IMG/VR virus record: IMGVR_UViG_3300047557_002118
Span: 1 to 25,290 of that record
DNA length: 25,290 bases
Origin: a virus
Direction: 5' to 3' (one strand)
Position 1 is the first letter of the stretch, and each line of letters begins with the position of its first letter. The notes beneath the pieces are model-generated. The model did no database searches. It was given only the letters and a program-made list of their open reading frames with translations, and was not told where the DNA came from. The translations under genes were made by a program, and so were the position numbers. Positions 2,533 through 22,915 of this stretch are shown here, piece after piece.

Positions 2533-4410
2533 TTAAGCCGTCTTCTGAATCCACAATCCGAAAATCGTGGCATAGTAGGCGCTTGACGATGGATTCTTTG
2601 ATTCCATTTTAATTTTTATTTCGACGCTCCCGCCCGTGGAAACAACACCACCAGAGATTACGCCGACTATCGCAAGTGGCGTCCCGTAACTATCATAGGT
2701 TCCAACTTCAACGCCATCTAAATACCAGTGATAAACGCCTCTGTTGGTGTCCTTGATGTCAGAGATAAGCAGGTTGTAGGTGCCTGCTGGGAGGATGATA
2801 TTCCAGACGGCCTCGTCGTTGGCTGCTCCAGAACTTTGATACCAGACGCCGTACCCGCTCCCTGCTTGTATTGTGAATCCAACATTGCTATCAGGACCGA
2901 TACAGGGGAGTGTATAGCGGTCAAGGATCGGGGCGCCTTTTATAGTCACCTGCCCGCCACCGTCATCTACAACCTCTGCGTTCTCAACAACAATCGTGCT
3001 GACTCCACCGACCGTTGTTGTTCCGTCGCTCACGGTGATGGATGACGACCCGCCGCCTCCACCGCCAGTGCTTGACGATCCAGCGAGAGTAACAGAAGAT
3101 GCGCCGTCGGCCACTTCCGCGATCTGCATAATGAGCACGTCACCGGAAACGAAATCGGTTATCAATGGCGTGAATGAAGCCAGATTGTCGGTGTCTGTTC
3201 CCGACATTACTGGCCGATTGTCGGTGTACAAGTCTGTGAATATAGATACGTCTGCGCTTCCGACGCGCCGAAGCAAAACATCGAGAACGGTCTGACCGTA
3301 AATGTCCCCAAGTTCCTCGAGGTACATTGTCCATTCGCTAATTGTTGTCGGCTGAGTTATTAGTATTGGCGAAGTTGCTCTTTCGGAAACAACAAGGCGA
3401 CCGTCTGCGTAAAAAGATGTGGCGCCACCTCCACCACTGCTGCCACTACCTAAGAGAATCCAGACAGCGGCTCCCTCATCGTTATTCTTACAAACGTATA
3501 TGTCGTCAGTTAAGGAATCATTCCAGTGATCGTCAATGCGATAGCCTTCGCTTGAATCATCGTTTGCGTCTGGAGTGCCCGATCTTGACCACCTGCGGAT
3601 ATATATAGGATCGGTGTAGGTCAGGTCAGGCGGGAATGTCTCAGGCTTGCCAGTTATCGAGGACCAATCAACTGAGGTGGCAAGGCCGCCAGAGGCAACC
3701 CCGGTGAAGCGAGTGTCGAAAATGTCAGAGTCTTTCTCCGTTGCAATGATGCGGAGTTGCCCAAAGTAGCATTTCAGCGCAAAGCAGGAAGCCTTATCGG
3801 ATGCGGGATGGGGGATATTTTCAGGTGTGAGCAATTCCCTGCTTGCCAGCGTGTCGCCGTCTCTTAGCGTGATGGTTTTGTCCTCGGCAATTTCAGCAAG
3901 GACCCATCGAGCACCCGACGATGGAATGTGAGACGAAAAATCAACGTCTCCGTTATTTTTCGTGTGGTACCCATTCAGAAAGTAATTAAATCCTCGAAGG
4001 CTTACGATCATGCCCGTGTTGCTTTTTGGGTACGCAAGACCAGGAAGTATCTGATCGTGCGTGATCCACACAGGGTCGTAGCCCCATCGCTTGTGGCTGA
4101 TCTCAGCATGATTGGCAACAGGGGGATACGGTGGATCGAGATAGGCGTTTACCTGCCGTAGCACCTGCAATAAAGTAGAGTCTGATGAAGACTTGTCATA
4201 GCCAACAACCACAAGTAACTTAGCCTGATTCGGAACTCTTGTGTTTCTAACAGTCAGTTCGGTTTTGTCGTGGCGAATCACCCAAACATTATTTTTTTTA
4301 TCAGCCTCAACGACTCCGCTCGCGTTTCCTAGAAATGCGACAAACTCCCATTGCTCGTTGGGAGGTACAAGTATCTGCATACTTTTGGTTAGATCATTGA
4401 ATGCTGTCAT
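2533..4410 (-). CDS. Large tail fibre / tail-tip protein with Gly-rich linkers
   Basis: A 625-residue protein in what looks like four blocks. An N-terminal block of about 200 residues probably anchors it to the tail. A short segment around 300-325 ends in a linker GSGSSGGGG. A middle beta-domain of about 115 residues is followed by a second linker (SSSTGGGGGGSSS, near 440-452). A C-terminal domain of about 120 residues starts near APILDRYTLP and ends in IFGLWIQ, with the look of a jelly-roll carbohydrate-binding tip. Glycine-run hinges between beta-domains are typical of phage fibres. The start overlaps the upstream hub gene by 4 bases (ATGA), linking its translation to the hub on which it probably mounts. 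No enzyme motif is visible, so a depolymerase role is unsupported. Confidence 0.6.
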   Translation of the reverse strand: MTAFNDLTKSMQILVPPNEQWEFVAFLGNASGVVEADKKNNVWVIRHDKTELTVRNTRVPNQAKLLVVVGYDKSSSDSTLLQVLRQVNAYLDPPYPPVANHAEISHKRWGYDPVWITHDQILPGLAYPKSNTGMIVSLRGFNYFLNGYHTKNNGDVDFSSHIPSSGARWVLAEIAEDKTITLRDGDTLASRELLTPENIPHPASDKASCFALKCYFGQLRIIATEKDSDIFDTRFTGVASGGLATSVDWSSITGKPETFPPDLTYTDPIYIRRWSRSGTPDANDDSSEGYRIDDHWNDSLTDDIYVCKNNDEGAAVWILLGSGSSGGGGATSFYADGRLVVSERATSPILITQPTTISEWTMYLEELGDIYGQTVLDVLLRRVGSADVSIFTDLYTDNRPVMSGTDTDNLASFTPLITDFVSGDVLIMQIAEVADGASSVTLAGSSSTGGGGGGSSSITVSDGTTTVGGVSTIVVENAEVVDDGGGQVTIKGAPILDRYTLPCIGPDSNVGFTIQAGSGYGVWYQSSGAANDEAVWNIILPAGTYNLLISDIKDTNRGVYHWYLDGVEVGTYDSYGTPLAIVGVISGGVVSTGGSVEIKIKMESKNPSSSAYYATIFGLWIQKTA

Positions 4411-13685: not shown

Positions 13686-14702
13686 CTAACAGCCTGTGAC
13701 GTGAACAATGCCACAAGCATCGTTGGCATCGTGCTTGACGCGGACAGTCAGAGCAGTAAACACACGGAAAGAAACCATGAAGCCGCTACCGTCTTCCCAC
13801 TGCACCGGGGTAGTCCCCTGCGCGACACCGAGGTCGGCAACGTCAGGGGAGAGTTGCCACACGATCATGTGACCGGAGGTCAACTTATCGGCGGGCTTAA
13901 GGAACGAGAGGCCCGGGATCTGCGCGACAATGGCAGCCATTTCAGAAACAGCGGTATTGGTAATCAGTTGGTTTACCTGGCTGTATTGATCGCGAGCCAG
14001 ATACACGCCAAACGGACCTGGGTATCCAAGAGCCTGCAAGAATCCAATCGCGCCATTGATGGTCTTATAGGCGTTACCACTGGTGCCAAAGTCACCACCA
14101 CCGCAATCAGCGGAGGTCTTTTGAAGGCGCTGGGGCTTTGTGGTCAGGCCATAAATAACGTTACCGCCAAGGCTTTGTGTGTCACCATTGAAGATCAAGT
14201 CATCGACTTTATCCTGAACGCGACGAGTGGCAACGCGGGCCTGTGTCGTGTCGAGGTTGCCGGGGTTGGGGCCGCGACGGGAAGCCTCGAGGGTGCGCAG
14301 GGAAAGCGAGAAGTCCTTGAAAATCAAAGGAACGGGGATGCTCTGCGGAGTGAATTCAACCGCATCGTTTTGCCCACGCACGATACCCTCCATGTTCATC
14401 TGAGCAGGAGTCATGTCGCTGAGTTGTTCATAGGTGGAGATTGTCACACCAAGGCCGTCGAGGGGCTGGGTCAACCCAAGGCGCAGGAAGTCATTGAGGG
14501 CAACATTCGGCTGACGGACCACATCAAGCACGGCGGCGTCAATCTGTTCCCATTCATAGCGACGCAGGAGAGCGTTTTGCACAACAGTTTCCTGACCGTT
14601 CGCGAAAACCACGGGCTGATTGCGCTTGTTGAAATACGGACGCATCAAGCCCACATCGAGAGCACCACCAGAGGCGGCCCAAGCATTGAAAATAGAAGTC
14701 AT
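13686..14702 (-). CDS. Major capsid protein (HK97 fold, encapsulin-like)
   Basis: A 338-residue protein forming the icosahedral shell. The order protease/scaffold, decoration, capsid, connector supports this. Sequence features fit the encapsulin-like branch of HK97-fold capsid proteins: a region with SIPVPLIFKDFSLSLRTLEA (about 115-135), a long spine helix with RVATRRVQDKVDDLIFNGD that leads to a glycine-rich stretch, and a C-terminal beta-rich half. There is no N-terminal scaffolding (delta) domain, which agrees with a separate scaffold encoded upstream. GGAGG precedes ATG 14702, which overlaps the upstream stop (TAATG). A strong hairpin follows. The fold is inferred from pattern and context. 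A same-length open frame on the other strand is a shadow. Confidence 0.82.
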   Translation of the reverse strand: MTSIFNAWAASGGALDVGLMRPYFNKRNQPVVFANGQETVVQNALLRRYEWEQIDAAVLDVVRQPNVALNDFLRLGLTQPLDGLGVTISTYEQLSDMTPAQMNMEGIVRGQNDAVEFTPQSIPVPLIFKDFSLSLRTLEASRRGPNPGNLDTTQARVATRRVQDKVDDLIFNGDTQSLGGNVIYGLTTKPQRLQKTSADCGGGDFGTSGNAYKTINGAIGFLQALGYPGPFGVYLARDQYSQVNQLITNTAVSEMAAIVAQIPGLSFLKPADKLTSGHMIVWQLSPDVADLGVAQGTTPVQWEDGSGFMVSFRVFTALTVRVKHDANDACGIVHVTGC

Positions 14703-15172
14703 TAGAGCACCTCCACCTTAATACGAACCGCTGCACCGCCAGTGCCCGGATCGTTGTCGATGTCTTCAAGGGCGCGAGCGACCGGGTTGGTGCTCGACAC
14801 CTTTAACGTACCATCACCATTGGACGCAAGCAAAGTACCGGCACCCGTAGTGTCGTTACCAGAACCAGCGGCCAGCCATGCGTACACCTCGTCACCAGGG
14901 CGGCAGTAGGCGAGGAACACAGTTTCACCATCGGTCTCGTAGACAGTATTAATGTTACGGCCTTCGTAGATCGAGTTTTGAATCGCAAACATCGGGGCCG
15001 CTTTTCCGGCGGCAGTTGCGTGAGGTTTGACCTCGTTGGTCAACGTGCGCTCACAGAGGTAGCCCGGGGTGATTCCGCCATCGCCATACACATCAAGCGC
15101 CTGCAAGGGAAGTTCCTTGTAGATCGGATCACCTGCAAGGATGATTACTTTCGGGGTTATCGATGAGGACAT
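14702..15172 (-). CDS. Head decoration / capsid-stabilising protein
   Basis: A 156-residue protein between protease/scaffold and capsid genes, the classical place of decoration proteins such as lambda gpD. It contains VYGDGGITPGYLCERT near residue 30, a Gly/Asp-rich middle and a closing AALE...GAAVRIKVEVL-like beta end (ARALEDIDND near 130). Phage proteins of this layout form small beta-barrels that bind the outside of the shell. AAGGAGG lies just before ATG 15172, a very strong ribosome site that predicts high expression. It lies 2 bases after the scaffold stop, and its stop overlaps the capsid ATG by one base. The decoration role is inferred; a capsid fibre is an alternative. Confidence 0.6.
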   Translation of the reverse strand: MSSSITPKVIILAGDPIYKELPLQALDVYGDGGITPGYLCERTLTNEVKPHATAAGKAAPMFAIQNSIYEGRNINTVYETDGETVFLAYCRPGDEVYAWLAAGSGNDTTGAGTLLASNGDGTLKVSSTNPVARALEDIDNDPGTGGAAVRIKVEVL

Positions 15173-15174
15173 TT

Positions 15175-15687
15175 TTACGCCTCCTTGCCATTGGCAGAAA
15201 ATAACGCCAGCATGTTCGGGGTCGCAAGCGGTTTATCGTCTGCGCTCGAGTTGTGGACGTATCCAGCGCCAAACGCCGCGTAGTTCACTGGCACAAAAGA
15301 GGCGGCCAGTTTCTCAAGCACGTCGAGTGACATTTGATTGAGGGTCGCTTCGTCGAAGGGGTTTGCGGAATTCTGCATAACCTTCTGAATGGCGGCCTTT
15401 TTTGCGACATCCTGCTGGGAAGCCGCGTTCTGCACAATTGTGTTCAACTGTGCTTGCATTCCTGCCACGGCATCAGGGAGTTTCGAGAGGGTCTCAAGGG
15501 TTTGAGTAAAAGCAACGACGCCGCCAGCATTCCGCACAACTTCGTTGAGTTGTACCAAGCCTTCAAGAGTCTTGCCGTCACCATCACCAGTGAGGACCAA
15601 TGAAACAGAATCGCCGTCTTCCGAAGCGGTCTTGACGTTGAAGCCGAGACTATTCAGGAATGTTTGTAGTGCGGGGAAATTCTTCAT
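15175..15687 (-). CDS. Scaffold protein from in-frame internal start
   Basis: Within the fusion gene, codons for KEYL are also an ideal ribosome site: AAAGGAG, six bases, then ATG at 15687 in the same frame. This would produce a separate 170-residue protein, starting MKNFPALQTFLNSLG, equal to the C-terminal part of the fusion. It has a helical middle (DAVAGMQAQLNTIVQ) and a DEATLNQMSLDVLEKLAA helix near residue 120, fitting a capsid scaffold. The arrangement mirrors lambda C/Nu3, where a protease gene contains its scaffold as a nested start. Expected: abundant scaffold, few protease fusions. Evidence is the ribosome site, frame and gene order; expression is not shown. Confidence 0.72.
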   Translation of the reverse strand: MKNFPALQTFLNSLGFNVKTASEDGDSVSLVLTGDGDGKTLEGLVQLNEVVRNAGGVVAFTQTLETLSKLPDAVAGMQAQLNTIVQNAASQQDVAKKAAIQKVMQNSANPFDEATLNQMSLDVLEKLAASFVPVNYAAFGAGYVHNSSADDKPLATPNMLALFSANGKEA

Positions 15688-16935
15688 TAGGTACTCCTTT
15701 GTAAAATGGGTTGCTATATCAGCGAACCAGGCACGCGCCGGGTTCGCGAATTGCCGATTGAATTGGATGTTAAGTCGCTGTGAATTCATGGCTACGCCCT
15801 TGTAGCCGTCGAGGGTGGCAGGGATCACCACGTCATCATCTACAACCAGAGACACTTCTGAAAAGTTGATCTCCATAGGCTCGATGGATTCGATTGGCAT
15901 GGGTTCGCCTTTTTTGACGTAGCCTATTGTCATGTGTGGGACAAACGAGTGAGCAGAGTGATAAGGGACTCTCCTGTCGTCTAACTCGGAGCGCACGCGA
16001 TTGTAGAGGCTCTGCATTTCTGGACTGTCAAAAAGAGCGACAACTACATCGCTGTCTCCCTCTCCGACAAATCGGGCAAGGCCGGTCATTTTCCCTTTTA
16101 TGCCGGAGGTGCTGCCAGCCGATGAAAGTAAAGCCTTGACTACCTGCTCAGTATCAAGGGTGCGACTATCGCCAAGGTAGACAATCGTAATATGCAGGCC
16201 GTCGCGAGTCTTATCATCCATCAGGGGGTACGCCTTCTGGAGATCGGCGCGGAGCACGTCAGGGATCATAAGTGCGATCATGGACTTTTCGGCGCCGCCC
16301 GGCTTATCCTCTGCTTCGTTTTTTGAAATGGCTTTTGATGGGCACGCAGAGCAATTGCCGCAATTCTGCACAACAAATTCGGAGTTGCGATTTACACCAC
16401 ACCCGTCCATGAGAGAGCACGCGCCGCGATCTTTCGTGAGAATCGCAATATGGTCAGGGTGGATATTTTTGTGAATTCCAATGTAGTCAGTGCCCTTGAA
16501 TTTCCCGCTTTCAAACACCACACCGGGAGCGTAGTACCCCGTTGACACCTCGAGCGGCTGCCCACGGAGAATAAGGTCGTACATCTTCGCGCCATCTTCG
16601 TTGGCAATAAGCACATCTTTCTCAAGCCAGAACTCGCCAACCAAACGACGGCCCTGCTCGTCAATGCTCGCATTGTAAAATCTTCCAACAACCGGGACAT
16701 CAGGGTAGGTCACGCGAGCCGCACCAGAATTCTGCGATGGGTGATTCAGCACAACCGGGACATCGTTCCAGTCAAACGGGTACATACTAAACTCATCAAA
16801 GGGAACATAATACTGATTGAGCACACCTTCGACAACTGGCACACCGGGAACAACAATGTACGACTTGCCATTCCGGTTGACCTCGCGCACGGACTTGAAA
16901 TCAAAATTGAAATTGTGGGAAAATATTTGAAGCAT
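15175..16935 (-). CDS. Fusion: DUF2213-type head maturation protease + 2H phosphoesterase domain + scaffold
   Basis: A 586-residue protein from ATG 16935 (AGGA site); a longer frame to 17010 runs through the palindrome and is rejected. Residues 1-185 resemble DUF2213 phage proteins, treated as prohead-protease-like: LNHP with His65, LEVSTGY with Ser131, and the ending HIAIL...GACSLMDGCG (162-180). A Cys cluster CGNCSAC (192-198) follows. Residues about 218-395 form a 2H (LigT-like) phosphoesterase: HITIVYLG (His248, Thr250) and HMTIGYV (His334, Thr336), the two HxT motifs whose histidines do catalysis. Residues 417-586 are helical and scaffold-like. The protease should process scaffold during capsid assembly; the 2H part may cleave cyclic or 2'-5' phosphodiesters in RNA or signal nucleotides. 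The fusion is directly visible; substrate and activity are unknown. Confidence 0.85.
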   Translation of the reverse strand: MLQIFSHNFNFDFKSVREVNRNGKSYIVVPGVPVVEGVLNQYYVPFDEFSMYPFDWNDVPVVLNHPSQNSGAARVTYPDVPVVGRFYNASIDEQGRRLVGEFWLEKDVLIANEDGAKMYDLILRGQPLEVSTGYYAPGVVFESGKFKGTDYIGIHKNIHPDHIAILTKDRGACSLMDGCGVNRNSEFVVQNCGNCSACPSKAISKNEAEDKPGGAEKSMIALMIPDVLRADLQKAYPLMDDKTRDGLHITIVYLGDSRTLDTEQVVKALLSSAGSTSGIKGKMTGLARFVGEGDSDVVVALFDSPEMQSLYNRVRSELDDRRVPYHSAHSFVPHMTIGYVKKGEPMPIESIEPMEINFSEVSLVVDDDVVIPATLDGYKGVAMNSQRLNIQFNRQFANPARAWFADIATHFTKEYLMKNFPALQTFLNSLGFNVKTASEDGDSVSLVLTGDGDGKTLEGLVQLNEVVRNAGGVVAFTQTLETLSKLPDAVAGMQAQLNTIVQNAASQQDVAKKAAIQKVMQNSANPFDEATLNQMSLDVLEKLAASFVPVNYAAFGAGYVHNSSADDKPLATPNMLALFSANGKEA

Positions 16936-17052: not shown

Positions 17053-17880
17053 TTAGCAGGTTTTGCTTTTTTGTGCAAGTCCCATAATTGCAAATGCCCA
17101 TGTGTAGAGAGTCAGATAGGGAGTAACAAAAGGGATCGCCATGAGTGCCCAGCGCAACTCGCGACGCTTTACGCCAATGAACAGCAGGATCAACCCAACA
17201 GGGATTCCCCACGGCCACGGGGCAGAATTCCACCCCTTCCCTACAGCATCAGCCGATCCGAGGAACCATGCCCCATAGACCAGAGTCGTTACGATCATGA
17301 GGATCACGAATGGGGTCACGCTGCCTGCGACCTTTCGGACTCTTTCCGCTATCGGCTCGCTTGATGTCAGGTAGGTCGCCACCCAAAAGATAACAATGGG
17401 CATCCCGATCTGAGGCTTAATCATGAGGACCAGCACGCCCAGCCACGTCGGGAACAAGAGGCCAAGCGCGACAAGGCCGTCGATATTCCCAAGAACTGAA
17501 TTCATCAGCACACCGCCGAACACAACCAGCGGAAGGATGAAAACGATCCTGACTCCCGTCTTCAACGCCACCCACGTATAGGCTGCGATATTGGCTACAA
17601 AAATGATCGGGACAGAGAGACTCAGCGGGAGCTTTGCGATAGGGATCAGCGGGACCAGTAGCCAAGCAGGATTCCAGTACCCATCAACGCGATACGGGGA
17701 ATCCCCACTGGCAAGCGCCCGCGCCGCAGGCTCAAAGTATAGGCGCCAATCAGCGCCCAGCACATTCGAAGCAAGTTCTCCGCCGCTGAAAAGCGCATAC
17801 CTGACAGCCATGGCGATTGCAACCATGGAGATCAACGAGACAATCAAAGACACAAGTTCAACTACTTTTATCTTCATCAT
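17053..17880 (-). CDS. GT87-like multi-pass membrane protein (GT-C superfamily), accessory gene
   Basis: A 275-residue, very hydrophobic protein with about eight or nine predicted membrane helices, starting with one at residues 7-29. Residues about 45-85 match the first loop of GT87/DUF2029 polyprenol-phosphate-mannose transferases: ADWRLYF, then ARALASGDSPY and WNPAWLLVPLIPIAKLP; Asp in this loop is the expected catalytic base. A later LMIKPQIGMP segment also fits. It is shorter than usual family members (about 400 residues), so it may lack terminal helices or be inactive. Overlap with the ASCH gene makes start choice uncertain: ATG 17880 or TTG 17886, both behind AGAGGA. It sits inside a phage head module, so it is likely a moron acting on host envelope glycans or blocking superinfection (inference). 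Confidence 0.65.
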   Translation of the reverse strand: MMKIKVVELVSLIVSLISMVAIAMAVRYALFSGGELASNVLGADWRLYFEPAARALASGDSPYRVDGYWNPAWLLVPLIPIAKLPLSLSVPIIFVANIAAYTWVALKTGVRIVFILPLVVFGGVLMNSVLGNIDGLVALGLLFPTWLGVLVLMIKPQIGMPIVIFWVATYLTSSEPIAERVRKVAGSVTPFVILMIVTTLVYGAWFLGSADAVGKGWNSAPWPWGIPVGLILLFIGVKRRELRWALMAIPFVTPYLTLYTWAFAIMGLAQKSKTC

Positions 17881-18154
17881 CGGCAATCCATTCCTCTGTC
17901 ACGTCAATTGCATACACCTCGGTTGGTACGTTTCCGAAGTGGGGATGCGTAATGACTTCTTTTTTTACGCCTTTCCACCTTCTGAGCATAAACCTACCTG
18001 CCTGAAACCCTCGCCACAAAACAACCTTTTCGTACTGCCGATTTTCTAGTTTACTTACCCAGTGCAGTCCGCGATACTCGAACTTCTTTTCTCCGCGCTC
18101 GATGGCGTCGTAGTATTCATATTTTAGATGCAAAACAAGGTTACTAGAAGCCAT
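17858..18154 (-). CDS. ASCH/PUA-like domain protein
   Basis: A 98-residue protein. LHLKYEYYDAIERGEKKFEYRG (the Leu-x-Leu strand, Ile-x-x-Gly-Glu-Lys-Lys helix and Glu-Tyr-Arg) is the hallmark start of ASCH-domain proteins of the PUA-like superfamily; a later VVLWRGF strand and VYAIDVTEEW also fit. The fold binds RNA or modified nucleotides; one branch (YqfB) is an N4-acetylcytidine amidohydrolase. Which activity applies here is unknown. A modest AAGG site precedes ATG 18154, which directly follows the TAA of the preceding small gene. It is cotranscribed with the GT87-like gene, overlapping it by 23 bases. Phages often carry ASCH genes as accessory functions. Confidence 0.72.
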   Translation of the reverse strand: MASSNLVLHLKYEYYDAIERGEKKFEYRGLHWVSKLENRQYEKVVLWRGFQAGRFMLRRWKGVKKEVITHPHFGNVPTEVYAIDVTEEWIADDEDKSS

Positions 18155-18397
18155 TTATTCAAACCTTTGAGAGACTATATCGTCAGCACCATAAGCGGTC
18201 TCAGCGCGAAATACAACCCGCTGAGACGCTTGAGCGAATGCGATCAGGTGGTGAAGCCTCAGTCGGTGCAATACGCCACGACGACGAATCTCAATGGTCA
18301 TCGTGGATGTATCCAGAGTCATCAAGAGCGATCCATCCATCCCGCGAACCTGCACGACTCTTCCCTCCGAATCTGTCTCTGGCTCAAACACTGTCAT
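18155..18397 (-). CDS. Small hypothetical protein of the accessory insertion
   Basis: An 80-residue protein starting MTVFEPETDSEGRVVQVRG, with alternating beta-type segments (LLMTLDTSTMTIEIRRRG) and then a helix ending in a basic, His-rich stretch. The ATG at 18397 overlaps the MuF-like stop as ATGA and is served by GGAG 6 bases upstream; an ATG at 18409 lacks a good site. A compact beta-sheet protein of this type could be a small binding or accessory protein, but no family is recognised. It links the MuF gene with ASCH, whose ATG starts immediately after its TAA. Confidence 0.55.
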   Translation of the reverse strand: MTVFEPETDSEGRVVQVRGMDGSLLMTLDTSTMTIEIRRRGVLHRLRLHHLIAFAQASQRVVFRAETAYGADDIVSQRFE

Positions 18398-19209
18398 TTT
18401 CCACTCCATTTCCGCGTTTCAATTTGACACAGGCAATTCGCCCTGCACGTCGCACCACCAAGCGGGACGATGTGATTTATCGGCATCCATCCAAGGTCCG
18501 CCAATTCTATACAGCCTGGCGTTTCTGCGGAGTCGGTGCAATGGTTTTCGTTCTCGCCAAGTACACGCCGCGCTTGATCGTGACCCATCGCGATCCCTCG
18601 TTGCAGTTTCACGTTTTGATAAAAGGCGTTTCCGTACCATCCATACGACCCAGCGCGTGACACAGCGGTCCCATCAAGGGCCTGCGCACCTGTGTCGAGT
18701 TGTCTTGCAAACTCTTCGAAGCGCCTAAACTGCATGAGCACAAAGATATAAAACAAATCTCTCCATGACTGATCGTCAAACAGAAATCCGCCAAGCCACA
18801 AAAGCCAGATGGTTGCGTAAAGGGCTTTCAGGATGTTCCGCGACCGCTCATACCAAACCACGAACATGATCGTTCCTGCGATGAGTTGCCTTGTTTCATT
18901 GCGCAGGCGCTCACGCGCATTTGCAGAGACACGCATTACCGAACGCCTCAATACATCCCCTGAGACTGCACGACCATTGGGATCGCGATAAACACCGGTA
19001 GCAGGATCGAAGGTGTAATCCTTCTCTCCCTTCGGTAGACTCCTGCTTACGCTGCCAGCAGGCCGAGCCGTCAGCAATCCGCGCATGGAAGTAGAGGAAT
19101 TCCACATCTCCTTCGCAAGTTCGACATCGTTGCTGTCTATGTCTGATATAAAACTCCGCACTTCGCCATCAGTGGGAAACGTGAAGGACTGCCAATTACT
19201 AGGTCGCAT
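18394..19209 (-). CDS. MuF-like phage head morphogenesis protein
   Basis: A 271-residue protein directly downstream of portal, the usual site of the MuF-like minor head protein. Its C-terminus has the expected Cys/His pattern: HCTDSAETPGC, INHIVPLGGATC and ANCLCQI, typical of the MuF C-terminal region. Unusual for the family, residues about 105-180 contain two strongly hydrophobic helices (LIAGTIMFVVWY and ALYATIWLLWLGGFLF), suggesting membrane or portal contact. AAAGGA lies 5 bases before ATG 19209. MuF proteins enter the virion at low copy number and help portal-capsid assembly or are ejected. Start, neighbours and motif all agree; the role of the hydrophobic part is unknown. Confidence 0.75.
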   Translation of the reverse strand: MRPSNWQSFTFPTDGEVRSFISDIDSNDVELAKEMWNSSTSMRGLLTARPAGSVSRSLPKGEKDYTFDPATGVYRDPNGRAVSGDVLRRSVMRVSANARERLRNETRQLIAGTIMFVVWYERSRNILKALYATIWLLWLGGFLFDDQSWRDLFYIFVLMQFRRFEEFARQLDTGAQALDGTAVSRAGSYGWYGNAFYQNVKLQRGIAMGHDQARRVLGENENHCTDSAETPGCIELADLGWMPINHIVPLGGATCRANCLCQIETRKWSGK

Positions 19210-19217
19210 TTTTTCCT

Positions 19218-20693
19218 TTACGCCGGAATAGACTGTTGCGTCTGTTCAGATTTCAAGCCATACTCAGCGGCCGCATCGGTGCCTTCCGTTGCCTGGTCCA
19301 CAGGTAAAGCCTCACCCTTCTTCTCTTCAATAACCGCCTCGTTGACGGTAACTTTGTACTTAAAGTTTTTGCGCAGGAAGTCAGCAATGTCGATGTATCC
19401 CTCCGGGACATTCCCGGTGATCGAAAGGATGGTCTTAGACTCTGTCTCGGCAAGGTTGGCTTTTTCAATTGTGGTCAACTGGAATAACTCGGGCCATTCA
19501 AGAGATATTTTTCCGGTAGGCTTTGGGATAATCTGCAAATCAACCAAGCGCATTGCAAAGTCCTTTACCCATCGGGTACATGTTTTCTTCTGGCGGGCCT
19601 CAACAACACTTGCCCAATTTGCGTCGTCAGACGATGACGCAAGTTCCCCACGCTCAGAGCCAACCAGTACACGCTGGGGCATCCTGGCGGTCCCTGCAAT
19701 GTCGGTGATAAGCAGGTCATGTTGCTGGCGTCCATCGACAACTTGCCCGCCAAGATCGTCCACGGTCACACCTTTGACGCGCATAGTACGACGGAGTCCA
19801 TGCTCCCACTCGTCAATCTCAGAAACCATATCGTTGTACTCGGGAGTTCCCTTTACTGGAAAGTTCGTGCCTTCTTGAGCACTGAGGATAAGACCTTTAC
19901 GGATCAGCATCCAAAACGCCTCACTGGACGAACCGACAACCTTCTCGAGGTCAGACAGCAGATTGTACGGCCTGCGCAGACGAGGGATTCCGTATATCCG
20001 AGACCTTCCGTATCCATCCTTCAAATGCACAACCCGACTCCAGTGTACGTTGATCGACTGCCCACCATCCTCGAGTTTGATCGTGTACGTCTCGGCCATT
20101 CCATAGCGAGGGCTGTTTGTGTTGCGATCAAATGTTGCAATCGGGGCCTGCCCCTCGTCGAAGACCTGAACATAAGCGATCTTGCCAGCATTCGCCCAAT
20201 TACCCTTGTTGTCAATAAGGGGGTCGGAAAACTCACCGGGGACCCCAAGAAGTATCACAGAGTAACGAGAAAACCCGAGGGCTATATCAGCCTCATTCAT
20301 GGCAGGCCAAATCTCAAGGTCATCAGCCAGGCGATTCCACGAGGATAGAAATTCGGTGTGCTGACTTGAGTTCTCGTCATCACCAAGGATACCCCCGTCT
20401 TTCATGATGGGTGGATTGCGCCAACTCTCATCAGCCAGAGAATCCACAAGCGCACCCGCGAGGCCATTTCGGTCGTACATATCAAACATGTCATTGTAGA
20501 CAAGATTTTTTTTCCATCCAAAAACATCGTAGTGATCTCGTGCGCCACCATGGGTTTGCCCCAGCGTACTTGCAAGCGCAGCCCTTGAGACAAGACCCGT
20601 GACGTTCTTGTACAAAGTTATAATTTCCTTTTTTGTCATGCGGGGGGATGGAACTGGAATTCTCAGGTATTTCAGATCATTTGCTTTAGCCAT
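19218..20693 (-). CDS. Portal protein
   Basis: A 491-residue protein after large terminase, forming the dodecameric DNA entry ring at one capsid vertex. The start at 20693 has GGAG 8 bases upstream; the longer frame overlapping terminase is rejected. It contains an N-terminal HYDVFGWKKN segment, a long stem-region helix stretch (DLEKVVGSSSEAFWMLIRKG), QQHDLLITDIAGTARMPQRVL, and SSSDDANWASVVEARQ, as in phage portals of the DUF1073 type. The last 60 residues are acidic and probably flexible. Spacing to the MuF gene is 8 bases. The order terL-portal-MuF makes this call firm, although the exact family is by pattern. Confidence 0.85.
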   Translation of the reverse strand: MAKANDLKYLRIPVPSPRMTKKEIITLYKNVTGLVSRAALASTLGQTHGGARDHYDVFGWKKNLVYNDMFDMYDRNGLAGALVDSLADESWRNPPIMKDGGILGDDENSSQHTEFLSSWNRLADDLEIWPAMNEADIALGFSRYSVILLGVPGEFSDPLIDNKGNWANAGKIAYVQVFDEGQAPIATFDRNTNSPRYGMAETYTIKLEDGGQSINVHWSRVVHLKDGYGRSRIYGIPRLRRPYNLLSDLEKVVGSSSEAFWMLIRKGLILSAQEGTNFPVKGTPEYNDMVSEIDEWEHGLRRTMRVKGVTVDDLGGQVVDGRQQHDLLITDIAGTARMPQRVLVGSERGELASSSDDANWASVVEARQKKTCTRWVKDFAMRLVDLQIIPKPTGKISLEWPELFQLTTIEKANLAETESKTILSITGNVPEGYIDIADFLRKNFKYKVTVNEAVIEEKKGEALPVDQATEGTDAAAEYGLKSEQTQQSIPA

Positions 20694-20697
20694 ATTT

Positions 20698-22284
20698 TTA
20701 TCTCCATGTGCCAGCACTTGCAGGCAGGGGCGCAAATGTCAGCATAAGACTCTCTGCACGATCAGGAGACCTACCTAGCAACTCCTTCATCGTGTCCTTG
20801 TCACTCACACGTATTCTACCACCTCGGATGAAGTAGGATGGCGCAGCCAATTCCTCAAGCAGATCATCATCAGGTGGGAGCATGGCCCCGGGGTCATCAC
20901 GTAGCCACACCATCACGCTCCACCACAATTGATCGCGCATCTGAAAAAACTCACCCATCTTCTCGTCAGGCGCAGCCATGGGCGCATACGTTGGTGAAGA
21001 CGCAACCATGACCCCTGTTGCACGACTCGCGCCAAGCCTTACCATGCGGGGGGCAACGCCCGCACCGACTCCTGTCCCATCAGTGAATATATAAATATCA
21101 TTCATGGGCAATCCAAGTTGCTTGAGAATTCCAAACCCTTTGATCGCCGTAGCGTCAGGGTCGATGCCGGACCAACCTTGCTGGCGTGGCACCCAGCCCC
21201 CATACCTCAAGGTCAACTGATTGGTGTCTCTGCCCATGTCGGCAATATCCAGACCTACAATTGGGCGTACATTGTGAGGCGGATTCTCTCCATACTTTGC
21301 GACATAGGTCAACCATCGACTGACGGCATTATCAAGCCAAACACGAGAAATCAATTGCGTCTCAGATCGCGGTGGGTAAATCCCTAGCACCATGTAAAAA
21401 AACGCTGGGTTGGTAACTCTTCTATGACCAGCAGGGAGCGGAGGATACTCAACATTCCCCATACTTCGAGCAACACTGCCCACAAGGAAATCAGGAACCT
21501 CAAAGCACTCCACATCGACCGTTTCATGGGGGGCAAGCGGGCGCGTCCATTCATTGATACGCCTGACAGTTTTTTCTCTGGATACCGCTCCAGAGATAAC
21601 ATCCTCACCAGTGGAAACATTGGGATGATCGAATGCGGACAAATGAATAACATTCCCCTCCCGCCGCTTCACCATGCCCGAAACAGTACCCACGTCGGCG
21701 CGGGGATTGAACATGATGAGCATACGAGTCATACCGCCGGACATGCAGGACTCTATACCCTTGAATACTTCTTGCGGAACCGCGTCGGCTTCATCGACAA
21801 TAAAAAGCATGTGGGGGGCGTGCTTGCCTGAGAACTTCGCCTCTCTCTGTTCTGGCGTTCCGGCCATAGGGATTGAAACACCAGTAATGAATGACTGCGG
21901 GCTACGTTGGATATTCATACCGCTGGACACATCACTACCGGGGAGGAGGTCCTGCCTCTTTCTGGTAAGCGAGCCAATTTCGCCCCACAGAATTTTTCTT
22001 AAGTTTCTTTCAGGGGGAGCAGCCGTCGTGTACACCTGGGCGTCCGGGTAGCACAAATAAAACCAGAGGGCGATACGCGCAGCAGCATGACTCTTTCCAG
22101 TTGCATTGGCCGAGACCGCAATAGTCACAGGGTTGTCGCGAACAGAATTCATAACTGTTTTGATTGGGTCCGTGTATCTTTCACCAAGGACCTCCGTACC
22201 AAAACGGACAGGGTTTTCGGCGTATTGCGAGAAATCAACAACTCCGGTCTGAGCAACCATCCCACTTTTGGAACTCTCACCCAT
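20698..22284 (-). CDS. terL: Terminase large subunit
   Basis: A 528-residue packaging motor and nuclease. ATG 22284 with AAGGA 6 bases upstream is chosen; frames reaching 22422 overlap the TerS gene without a ribosome site. Walker A is SANATGKS (58-65) and Walker B is MLFIVDEAD (159-167). A coupling segment (MLIMFNPRAD) follows. The C-terminal RNaseH-like nuclease half starts near residue 345 with GLDIADMGRDTN, then TDGTGVGAGV and a late conserved Asp region. It pumps DNA into the procapsid with ATP and cuts concatemers. The usual order TerS-TerL-portal is kept, with 19 bases to TerS and 4 bases to portal. Confidence 0.95.
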   Translation of the reverse strand: MGESSKSGMVAQTGVVDFSQYAENPVRFGTEVLGERYTDPIKTVMNSVRDNPVTIAVSANATGKSHAAARIALWFYLCYPDAQVYTTAAPPERNLRKILWGEIGSLTRKRQDLLPGSDVSSGMNIQRSPQSFITGVSIPMAGTPEQREAKFSGKHAPHMLFIVDEADAVPQEVFKGIESCMSGGMTRMLIMFNPRADVGTVSGMVKRREGNVIHLSAFDHPNVSTGEDVISGAVSREKTVRRINEWTRPLAPHETVDVECFEVPDFLVGSVARSMGNVEYPPLPAGHRRVTNPAFFYMVLGIYPPRSETQLISRVWLDNAVSRWLTYVAKYGENPPHNVRPIVGLDIADMGRDTNQLTLRYGGWVPRQQGWSGIDPDATAIKGFGILKQLGLPMNDIYIFTDGTGVGAGVAPRMVRLGASRATGVMVASSPTYAPMAAPDEKMGEFFQMRDQLWWSVMVWLRDDPGAMLPPDDDLLEELAAPSYFIRGGRIRVSDKDTMKELLGRSPDRAESLMLTFAPLPASAGTWR

Positions 22285-22303
22285 CCGAGTCCTTTTTTCA
22301 ATC

Positions 22304-22915
22304 TCAGCCGCCAGCAGCAGGCTTATCTGCTGGTTTATTATTTTTGTGCTGGACACCCGCGATGACGACAAGTGCATCCTCTCCTGCCTGAATTCTCTGC
22401 TGTATTTCAATAATTTCATCAAGAGAGAACTCAGACCAATTTATGTTTACATTGAAGTTGGGCTTTTCCTTTTCAGCCCAAAGCGCCTTGTAGTTCAAAT
22501 ACTGAGCGCGTTTATCCAAAATTGCCATGACCGCCGAAAAGTATATAGGATCCGGGGGGGGAGGCAGGTCCCCCTCTTCTTCTGGCTGTGGAATAGCAAG
22601 GGGGTAAACACGTTCAAACATTTCTTCAAGCCTCAAAAGGTCAAGGCGTAAATTCTCTTCGGCTAACTCCTTCTGATCTTCTATCAAGGTTCTGATTGCG
22701 TCCTTGCAATCCTTGTACGCAAGACCATGAGAATATGTCTGAGGAACCAATTTCAATTCCTTCAAGCGCCTTGCTATTTGACGATAGTTAAGTCCCTGGC
22801 GCTGGAGATCAAGTGCCCATGTGCGTCTTTGCAAAAGTTTCACTTCCTCGCTTGCCTGCGCAGTCGTTTTTTTCTTTTTTGGTGATTTACCTTCTCTCGT
22901 TGTTCTTGTTGCCAT
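22304..22915 (-). CDS. terS: Terminase small subunit
   Basis: A 203-residue DNA-recognition subunit of the packaging motor. ATG 22915 (GGAG 8 bases upstream) is preferred over a start at 22945. It begins with a very basic tail (REGKSPKKKKT) and a helix-turn-helix (DLQRQGLNYRQIARRLKEL, about 37-55), followed by a long oligomerising helix and a Pro-rich linker EEEGDLPPPPDP. The C-terminus is acidic and then Asn/Lys/Pro rich, fitting a terminase-binding tail. It lies directly upstream of terL and downstream of a terminator with a -10-like sequence, so it probably leads the late operon. Confidence 0.82.
   Translation of the reverse strand: MATRTTREGKSPKKKKTTAQASEEVKLLQRRTWALDLQRQGLNYRQIARRLKELKLVPQTYSHGLAYKDCKDAIRTLIEDQKELAEENLRLDLLRLEEMFERVYPLAIPQPEEEGDLPPPPDPIYFSAVMAILDKRAQYLNYKALWAEKEKPNFNVNINWSEFSLDEIIEIQQRIQAGEDALVVIAGVQHKNNKPADKPAAGG

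Follow-up and report, generated by a model that had tools for sequence, protein, structure and literature searches.

A 2H phosphoesterase domain as an exchangeable passenger in a phage head protease-scaffold gene

The window (the whole stretch of DNA analysed here, 25,290 nucleotides of a 25.3-kb viral contig) carries a gene in which a head maturation protease and a scaffold are separated by a 2H phosphoesterase domain. This protease-2H-scaffold gene (15175..16935; all window features lie on the minus strand) encodes 586 amino acids from an ATG at 16935 with AGGAA upstream, and the open reading frame and coordinates given in the first-pass annotation were correct. Sequence comparison with relatives indicates that the junction between protease and scaffold is an exchangeable slot with the 2H domain as its passenger. 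The gene is probably nested, the scaffold being started also, and in excess, at an internal codon, so that a short second product is predicted. We favour, by a modest degree of confidence above even, the explanation that the gene yields two proteins and that the phosphodiesterase enters the prohead as cargo and reaches the host cell on infection. That explanation is built on computational observations of the domain, its fold, its catalytic residues, the slot, an exchange with portal tails and the internal start.

The gene is flanked by a terminase, portal and MuF-position cluster and by the decoration and major capsid genes. The cluster comprises the terminase large subunit (20698..22422; phrog_2, E 3e-21), a portal protein of 493 amino acids that lacks the 2H tail found at this place in related phages (19218..20699; PF06381, E 3e-28), and a minor head protein assigned to the MuF position by its location, its match phrog_24776 being of unknown function (18394..19209). 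The other two encode a head decoration protein (14702..15172; phrog_766, E 5e-7) and the major capsid protein (13686..14702; PF19774 and Linocin_M18, phrog_771). Residues 1-185 (16381..16935) are, by sequence, a DUF2213 head maturation protease. Pfam family PF09979 matches residues 58-171 with 25.8 bits against a cut-off of 22, the PHROG neighbours of the protein are labelled head maturation protease, and the gene occupies a position between portal and capsid. The protein has His65 (16741-16743) and Ser131 (16543-16545), as well as Asp161-His162. His65 and Ser131 are invariant in an alignment of four divergent DUF2213 proteins, which bears out the first-pass assignment of these residues to a DUF2213-like protease. 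A variable linker follows (residues 186-218, 16282..16380), delimited by alignment, domain identities and Pfam; in relatives a ChaB domain is found here. ChaB domains recur in the head-protease linkers of contigs L021, L025, L033, L037, L041 and L044, and we know of no role for ChaB in phage heads.

Residues 219-376 (15808..16281) are a 2H phosphoesterase domain that, judged from alignment and a structural model, looks catalytically intact. The Pfam family 2_5_RNA_ligase2 (PF13563) matches residues 242-346 with E=7.5e-10 and 39.5 bits, against a cut-off of 27. The catalytic motifs are H248-I-T250 (16186..16194) and H334-M-T336 (15928..15936). In an alignment of 72 phage 2H domains, every row has H248 and T250 (72/72 each), partly through selection, since most rows were retrieved by a pattern on the first HxT motif alone; for the same reason the conservation of the second motif, with H334 in 71/72 and Thr (58) or Cys (12) at position 336, is largely independent evidence. 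The relatives L025 (54% identical over the full length) and L021 (40%) retain both catalytic histidines, with H65, S131, H248, T250, H334 and T336 all kept. One portal-tail copy, in contig L038 (6031-6540, plus strand), lacks the second catalytic His (FSPGVT for F.PH.T) and appears decayed or repurposed, so 2H activity is not kept in every copy.

An AlphaFold2 model of residues 212-376, made with the 72-sequence alignment, has a pLDDT of 96.1 and a pTM of 0.90; a model of the full-length protein made without an alignment reached a pLDDT of 34 and was discarded. Foldseek comparison of the 2H model with the PDB placed LigT, ThpR and CPDase structures at the top (E down to 4e-8, for 1iuh; TM 0.72), followed by the rotavirus 2'-5' PDE, Burkholderia-phage Acb1 (TM 0.63), Usb1 and FBB1 Acb1 (TM 0.55). 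The ranking was the same in a profile search of the PDB (PH0099 1.2e-13, E. coli LigT 1.6e-8, Acb1 4.5e-4). Pfam, alignment, model and fold comparison together confirm the first-pass claim of a 2H domain with both HxT motifs between protease and scaffold, and structure prediction returned the expected fold in LigT-like form. Residues 218-395, to which the domain had been assigned, do contain it, and 219-376 are the better bounds.

The domain shares the fold and both HxT motifs with the LigT/ThpR RNA 2',3'-cyclic phosphodiesterases, its top profile and structural matches. These are stand-alone cellular enzymes, whereas the window domain is fused and falls under the cut-off of the ThpR/LigT equivalog TIGR02258 (38.8 against 65.7 bits). 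With the anti-CBASS nuclease Acb1 it has in common the 2H superfamily, the HxT/HxT tetrad and a phage genome; Acb1, however, is encoded by a stand-alone gene and is the weaker structural match. Against the Acb1 family PF23474, with its curated cut-off of 27 bits, the window protein scored 22.4 and its relative L025 26.6. We rejected Acb1 identity on this score, and the link to Acb1 that the first-pass annotation had drawn is weak. With the domain closer to LigT than to Acb1, an anti-CBASS role is one possibility.

No relative was found when viral contigs were searched with the window protein alone, and none in GTDB genomes; relatives were recovered by pattern searches and three-sequence alignments, a seven-sequence actinophage alignment being too diverse to serve as a query. 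Among these relatives the slot holds a 2H domain, ChaB and 2H (L032/L025 and L036/L021), ChaB and another domain, or nothing. L033 is 62% identical to the window protein in the protease and 52% in the scaffold, with ChaB and an unrelated stretch between them; in L035 the values are 59% and 43% and no domain is inserted. No 2H domain was found anywhere on the L033 and L035 contigs, both of them fragments, and in such close relatives this argues that the domain is dispensable. An independent arrangement, with 2H ahead of DUF2213, is found in L145/L173.

Outside the protease slot, the nearest 2H domains are the C-terminal tails of Phage_portal_3 proteins (L028, L046, L048, L049, L051, L050 and L038), which belong to the same 2H subfamily as the window domain. 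Among the contigs examined, which are fragments, each has at most one 2H domain, and portal and protease never carry it together. Portal ORFs are about 720-745 amino acids long with the domain and about 515-545 when it is the protease that has it. In a tree, all three copies from the protease slot group as one clade (95/90) that branches from within the portal-tail copies, and L145 is far away. This suggests a single transfer of the domain from portal to protease, on a tree whose rooting is uncertain and several of whose forks are weak. The portal of L044/L172 has a long tail that lacks 2H and instead has its match in the small alarmone synthetase 8vx3 (3.5e-18). This alarmone-synthetase-like tail makes up the C-terminal ~195 amino acids of the L172 gene (1111-3357, minus strand), which also shows a partial NCBIfam match to XopAD/skwp-type models.

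Other head proteins carry the domain as well. A motif-sampled set of 63 non-redundant long 2H ORFs, drawn from the window and viral contigs, included by Pfam 13 with MuF, about 11 with portal domains (counted over four families, with overlap possible) and a few with DUF2213 or S78; PHROG tallies of 'portal' and 'protease' were left out because some such profiles themselves contain a 2H domain. In cultured actinophages, as in the window, 2H and an annotated head protease share one ORF, the products being named 'RNA ligase' or 'capsid maturation protease' in GenBank. The arrangements are independent of that of the window gene: Arthrobacter and Microbacterium phages have 2H N-terminal to a different protease (Peptidase_S78_2), and Gordonia phages have it fused to another annotated head protease, as in the 941-amino-acid protein of EMoore with 2H in mid-protein, while in the window the domain is internal and the protease is DUF2213. 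In Gordonia phage EMoore (L002) an annotated histidine-triad nucleotide-binding protein (2746-3108, plus strand) is encoded between MuF and the 2H-protease, a further case of a nucleotide enzyme within a head module. The first-pass view that such an insertion is unexpected is not supported, given these pervasive fusions and the MuF and portal cases published in 2017 (PMC5512222). In that paper Iyer et al. describe, among polyvalent proteins, fusions of 2H with MuF and with portal proteins, and propose packaging and RNase or anti-nucleotide roles in defence (PMC5512222). The carriers named there are MuF and portal; the window gene uses a DUF2213 protease-scaffold that has a probable nested start and an exchangeable slot. 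The fusion of 2H to a head protein is thus a known theme, of which the window gene is a variant; no description of the slot was met in the literature searched, which covers few subscription journals.

The evidence for a nested gene comes from five related genes, those of the window, L032, L036, L033 and L035. In the window, the codons AAG GAG of K413-E414 (15694..15699) form a Shine-Dalgarno sequence six bases upstream of ATG417, where the conserved scaffold starts, and open an in-frame scaffold ORF of 170 amino acids (15175..15687). AAGGAG followed by ATG is present in 5/5, with spacings of 6, 6, 9, 6 and 6 in the order given, and AGGAG with a following ATG occurs once per gene. Between any two of the genes, 36-47% of codons agree where the residue is shared; the codons are saturated. 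Single-codon use is seen in 5/106 invariant columns (Met and Trp excluded) and, among the 11 invariant Lys or Glu columns, in the two of the Shine-Dalgarno pair; the nine others vary. Random synonymous recoding produced the signal in all five genes at a frequency of 0.001, a value to be read in the light of the relatedness of the genes, which are not fully independent. Conservation of AAGGAG and ATG despite saturated codons argues that the gene is probably nested. In-frame Shine-Dalgarno and ATG pairs also lie downstream of the protease in the distant relatives phiLM21, StAshley and L043, that of StAshley preceding an extra domain. The gene would resemble C/Nu3 of phage lambda, in which the scaffold start lies in frame inside the protease gene. 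Its protease is probably a different one, an enzyme is inserted between protease and scaffold, and the start is indicated here by the conserved Shine-Dalgarno and ATG. Lying upstream of the internal start, the 2H domain is confined to the long protease form.

The delivery explanation that we favour would run as follows. The scaffold tail would bring the long form (protease-2H-scaffold) into the prohead. The short form, begun at the internal AAGGAG-ATG (residue 417), would be scaffold alone. The 2H domain, which the long form carries as an exchangeable passenger, would reach the head interior at the copy number of the protease. The protease would mature the head and probably cut the domain free of protease and scaffold; the domain would be retained, then ejected with the DNA. 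In the new host it may cleave phosphodiesters without need of a metal, its candidate substrates being 2',3'-cyclic, 2'-5' and cyclic oligonucleotides, with a defence signal or damaged RNA ends as the likeliest targets. The steps of cleavage, retention and ejection are inferred, as is the substrate. Portal C-termini, MuF and scaffold are all located inside the head, so the three carriers point to one location; the swapping of 2H in, out and onto the portal in related viruses suggests that it rides inside the virus particle. The first-pass suggestion that the location hints at packaging gains support; packaging itself and release by the protease are predicted. A precedent exists in phage T4, whose internal proteins and Alt are packaged in the core, undergo trimming by the prohead protease and are later ejected (PMC9026906). 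IPI-III and Alt, which are enzymes or inhibitors that assemble together with the scaffold core, are encoded by separate genes with targeting peptides, whereas the putative cargo of the window gene forms one polypeptide with protease and scaffold. As a rule, propeptides are expected to exit the head (PMC10052503), so a released 2H domain of 17 kDa could be lost or degraded. A glycine-rich linker motif of some relatives was considered as a processing signal and rejected; the window protein lacks it, and it occurs in 1/66 long 2H ORFs.

We regard it as unlikely that the 2H domain instead acts late in the producing cell, either before assembly as part of the precursor or once set free, for instance on a late-acting defence signal, with the fusion to a late gene setting only timing and dose. 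The late position of the gene fits such a role, as do short separate 2H genes that adjoin portal genes in L005 and L004 and the separate acb1 gene of T4, whose product's activity was assayed in lysates of infected cells (PMC9117128). Timing alone, however, fails to explain why fusions to portal, MuF and protease-scaffold arose repeatedly, all ending inside the head, or why one 2H subfamily moved between two head-interior carriers. Still less probable is a structural spacer or assembly-binding module whose enzyme activity is irrelevant. The slot does accept other domains or none, and L038 has lost a catalytic His, but the catalytic His and Thr rank with the best-conserved residues of a family that is elsewhere about 20-60% identical, and the empty slot of L035 argues that no spacer is needed.

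The substrate is a question that overlaps with delivery, and our estimate for it is not additive with the others. There is an appreciable chance, though short of even, that the 2H domain, delivered or not, works on RNA rather than on an immune signal: it would either open the 2',3'-cyclic phosphates left on tRNA or rRNA by host RNase toxins, or be an RNase itself. The nearest profile and fold matches are RNA 2',3'-cyclic phosphodiesterases, and this similarity allows RNA 2',3'-cyclic ends as substrate. Against it, the window proteins scanned included neither an RNA ligase nor a kinase partner, and Iyer et al. 2017 never saw their 2H versions associated with RNA ligases (PMC5512222). Action on immune nucleotides has been demonstrated repeatedly for viral LigT-like phosphodiesterases (PMC11410667), and an alarmone-synthetase-like domain occupies the same position in a related portal; the viral record (PMC11410667, PMC9117128) and this alternative cargo favour a signalling-nucleotide substrate. 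PADLOC gave no match for the protease-2H-scaffold protein.

A wider and more doubtful proposal, which we offer tentatively, is that the protease-scaffold junction and the portal tail may be general cargo slots through which a family of tailed phages loads its virions with interchangeable enzymes of nucleotide signalling (2H phosphodiesterase, alarmone synthetase) that would disarm or rewire second-messenger immunity of the host at DNA entry. If packaged, the enzyme could neutralise a nucleotide alarm before phage gene expression, which newly made Acb1 cannot do. In phage genomes that lack annotation, the swappable slot would be a simple marker for effectors delivered by the virion, and the nested gene would indicate the position of the cargo and its rough copy number.

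Several further genes deserve mention. A 1080-amino-acid ORF of L031 (759-3998, minus strand) joins an inorganic-pyrophosphatase domain (PF18823) to a weak 2H match. In the window, 17858-18154 encodes a small phrog_625 protein within the head module that matches DUF3850 (possibly ASCH-like) below threshold. At 17053-17886, an odd spot between the MuF-position and protease genes, lies a hydrophobic, apparently multi-membrane-spanning protein for which no family match was found. The relatives L174 (2985-5478) and L175 (4614-7924) have extra genes of several ORFs between the MuF-position gene and the protease, and because these differ among relatives the interval looks like a second hypervariable site.
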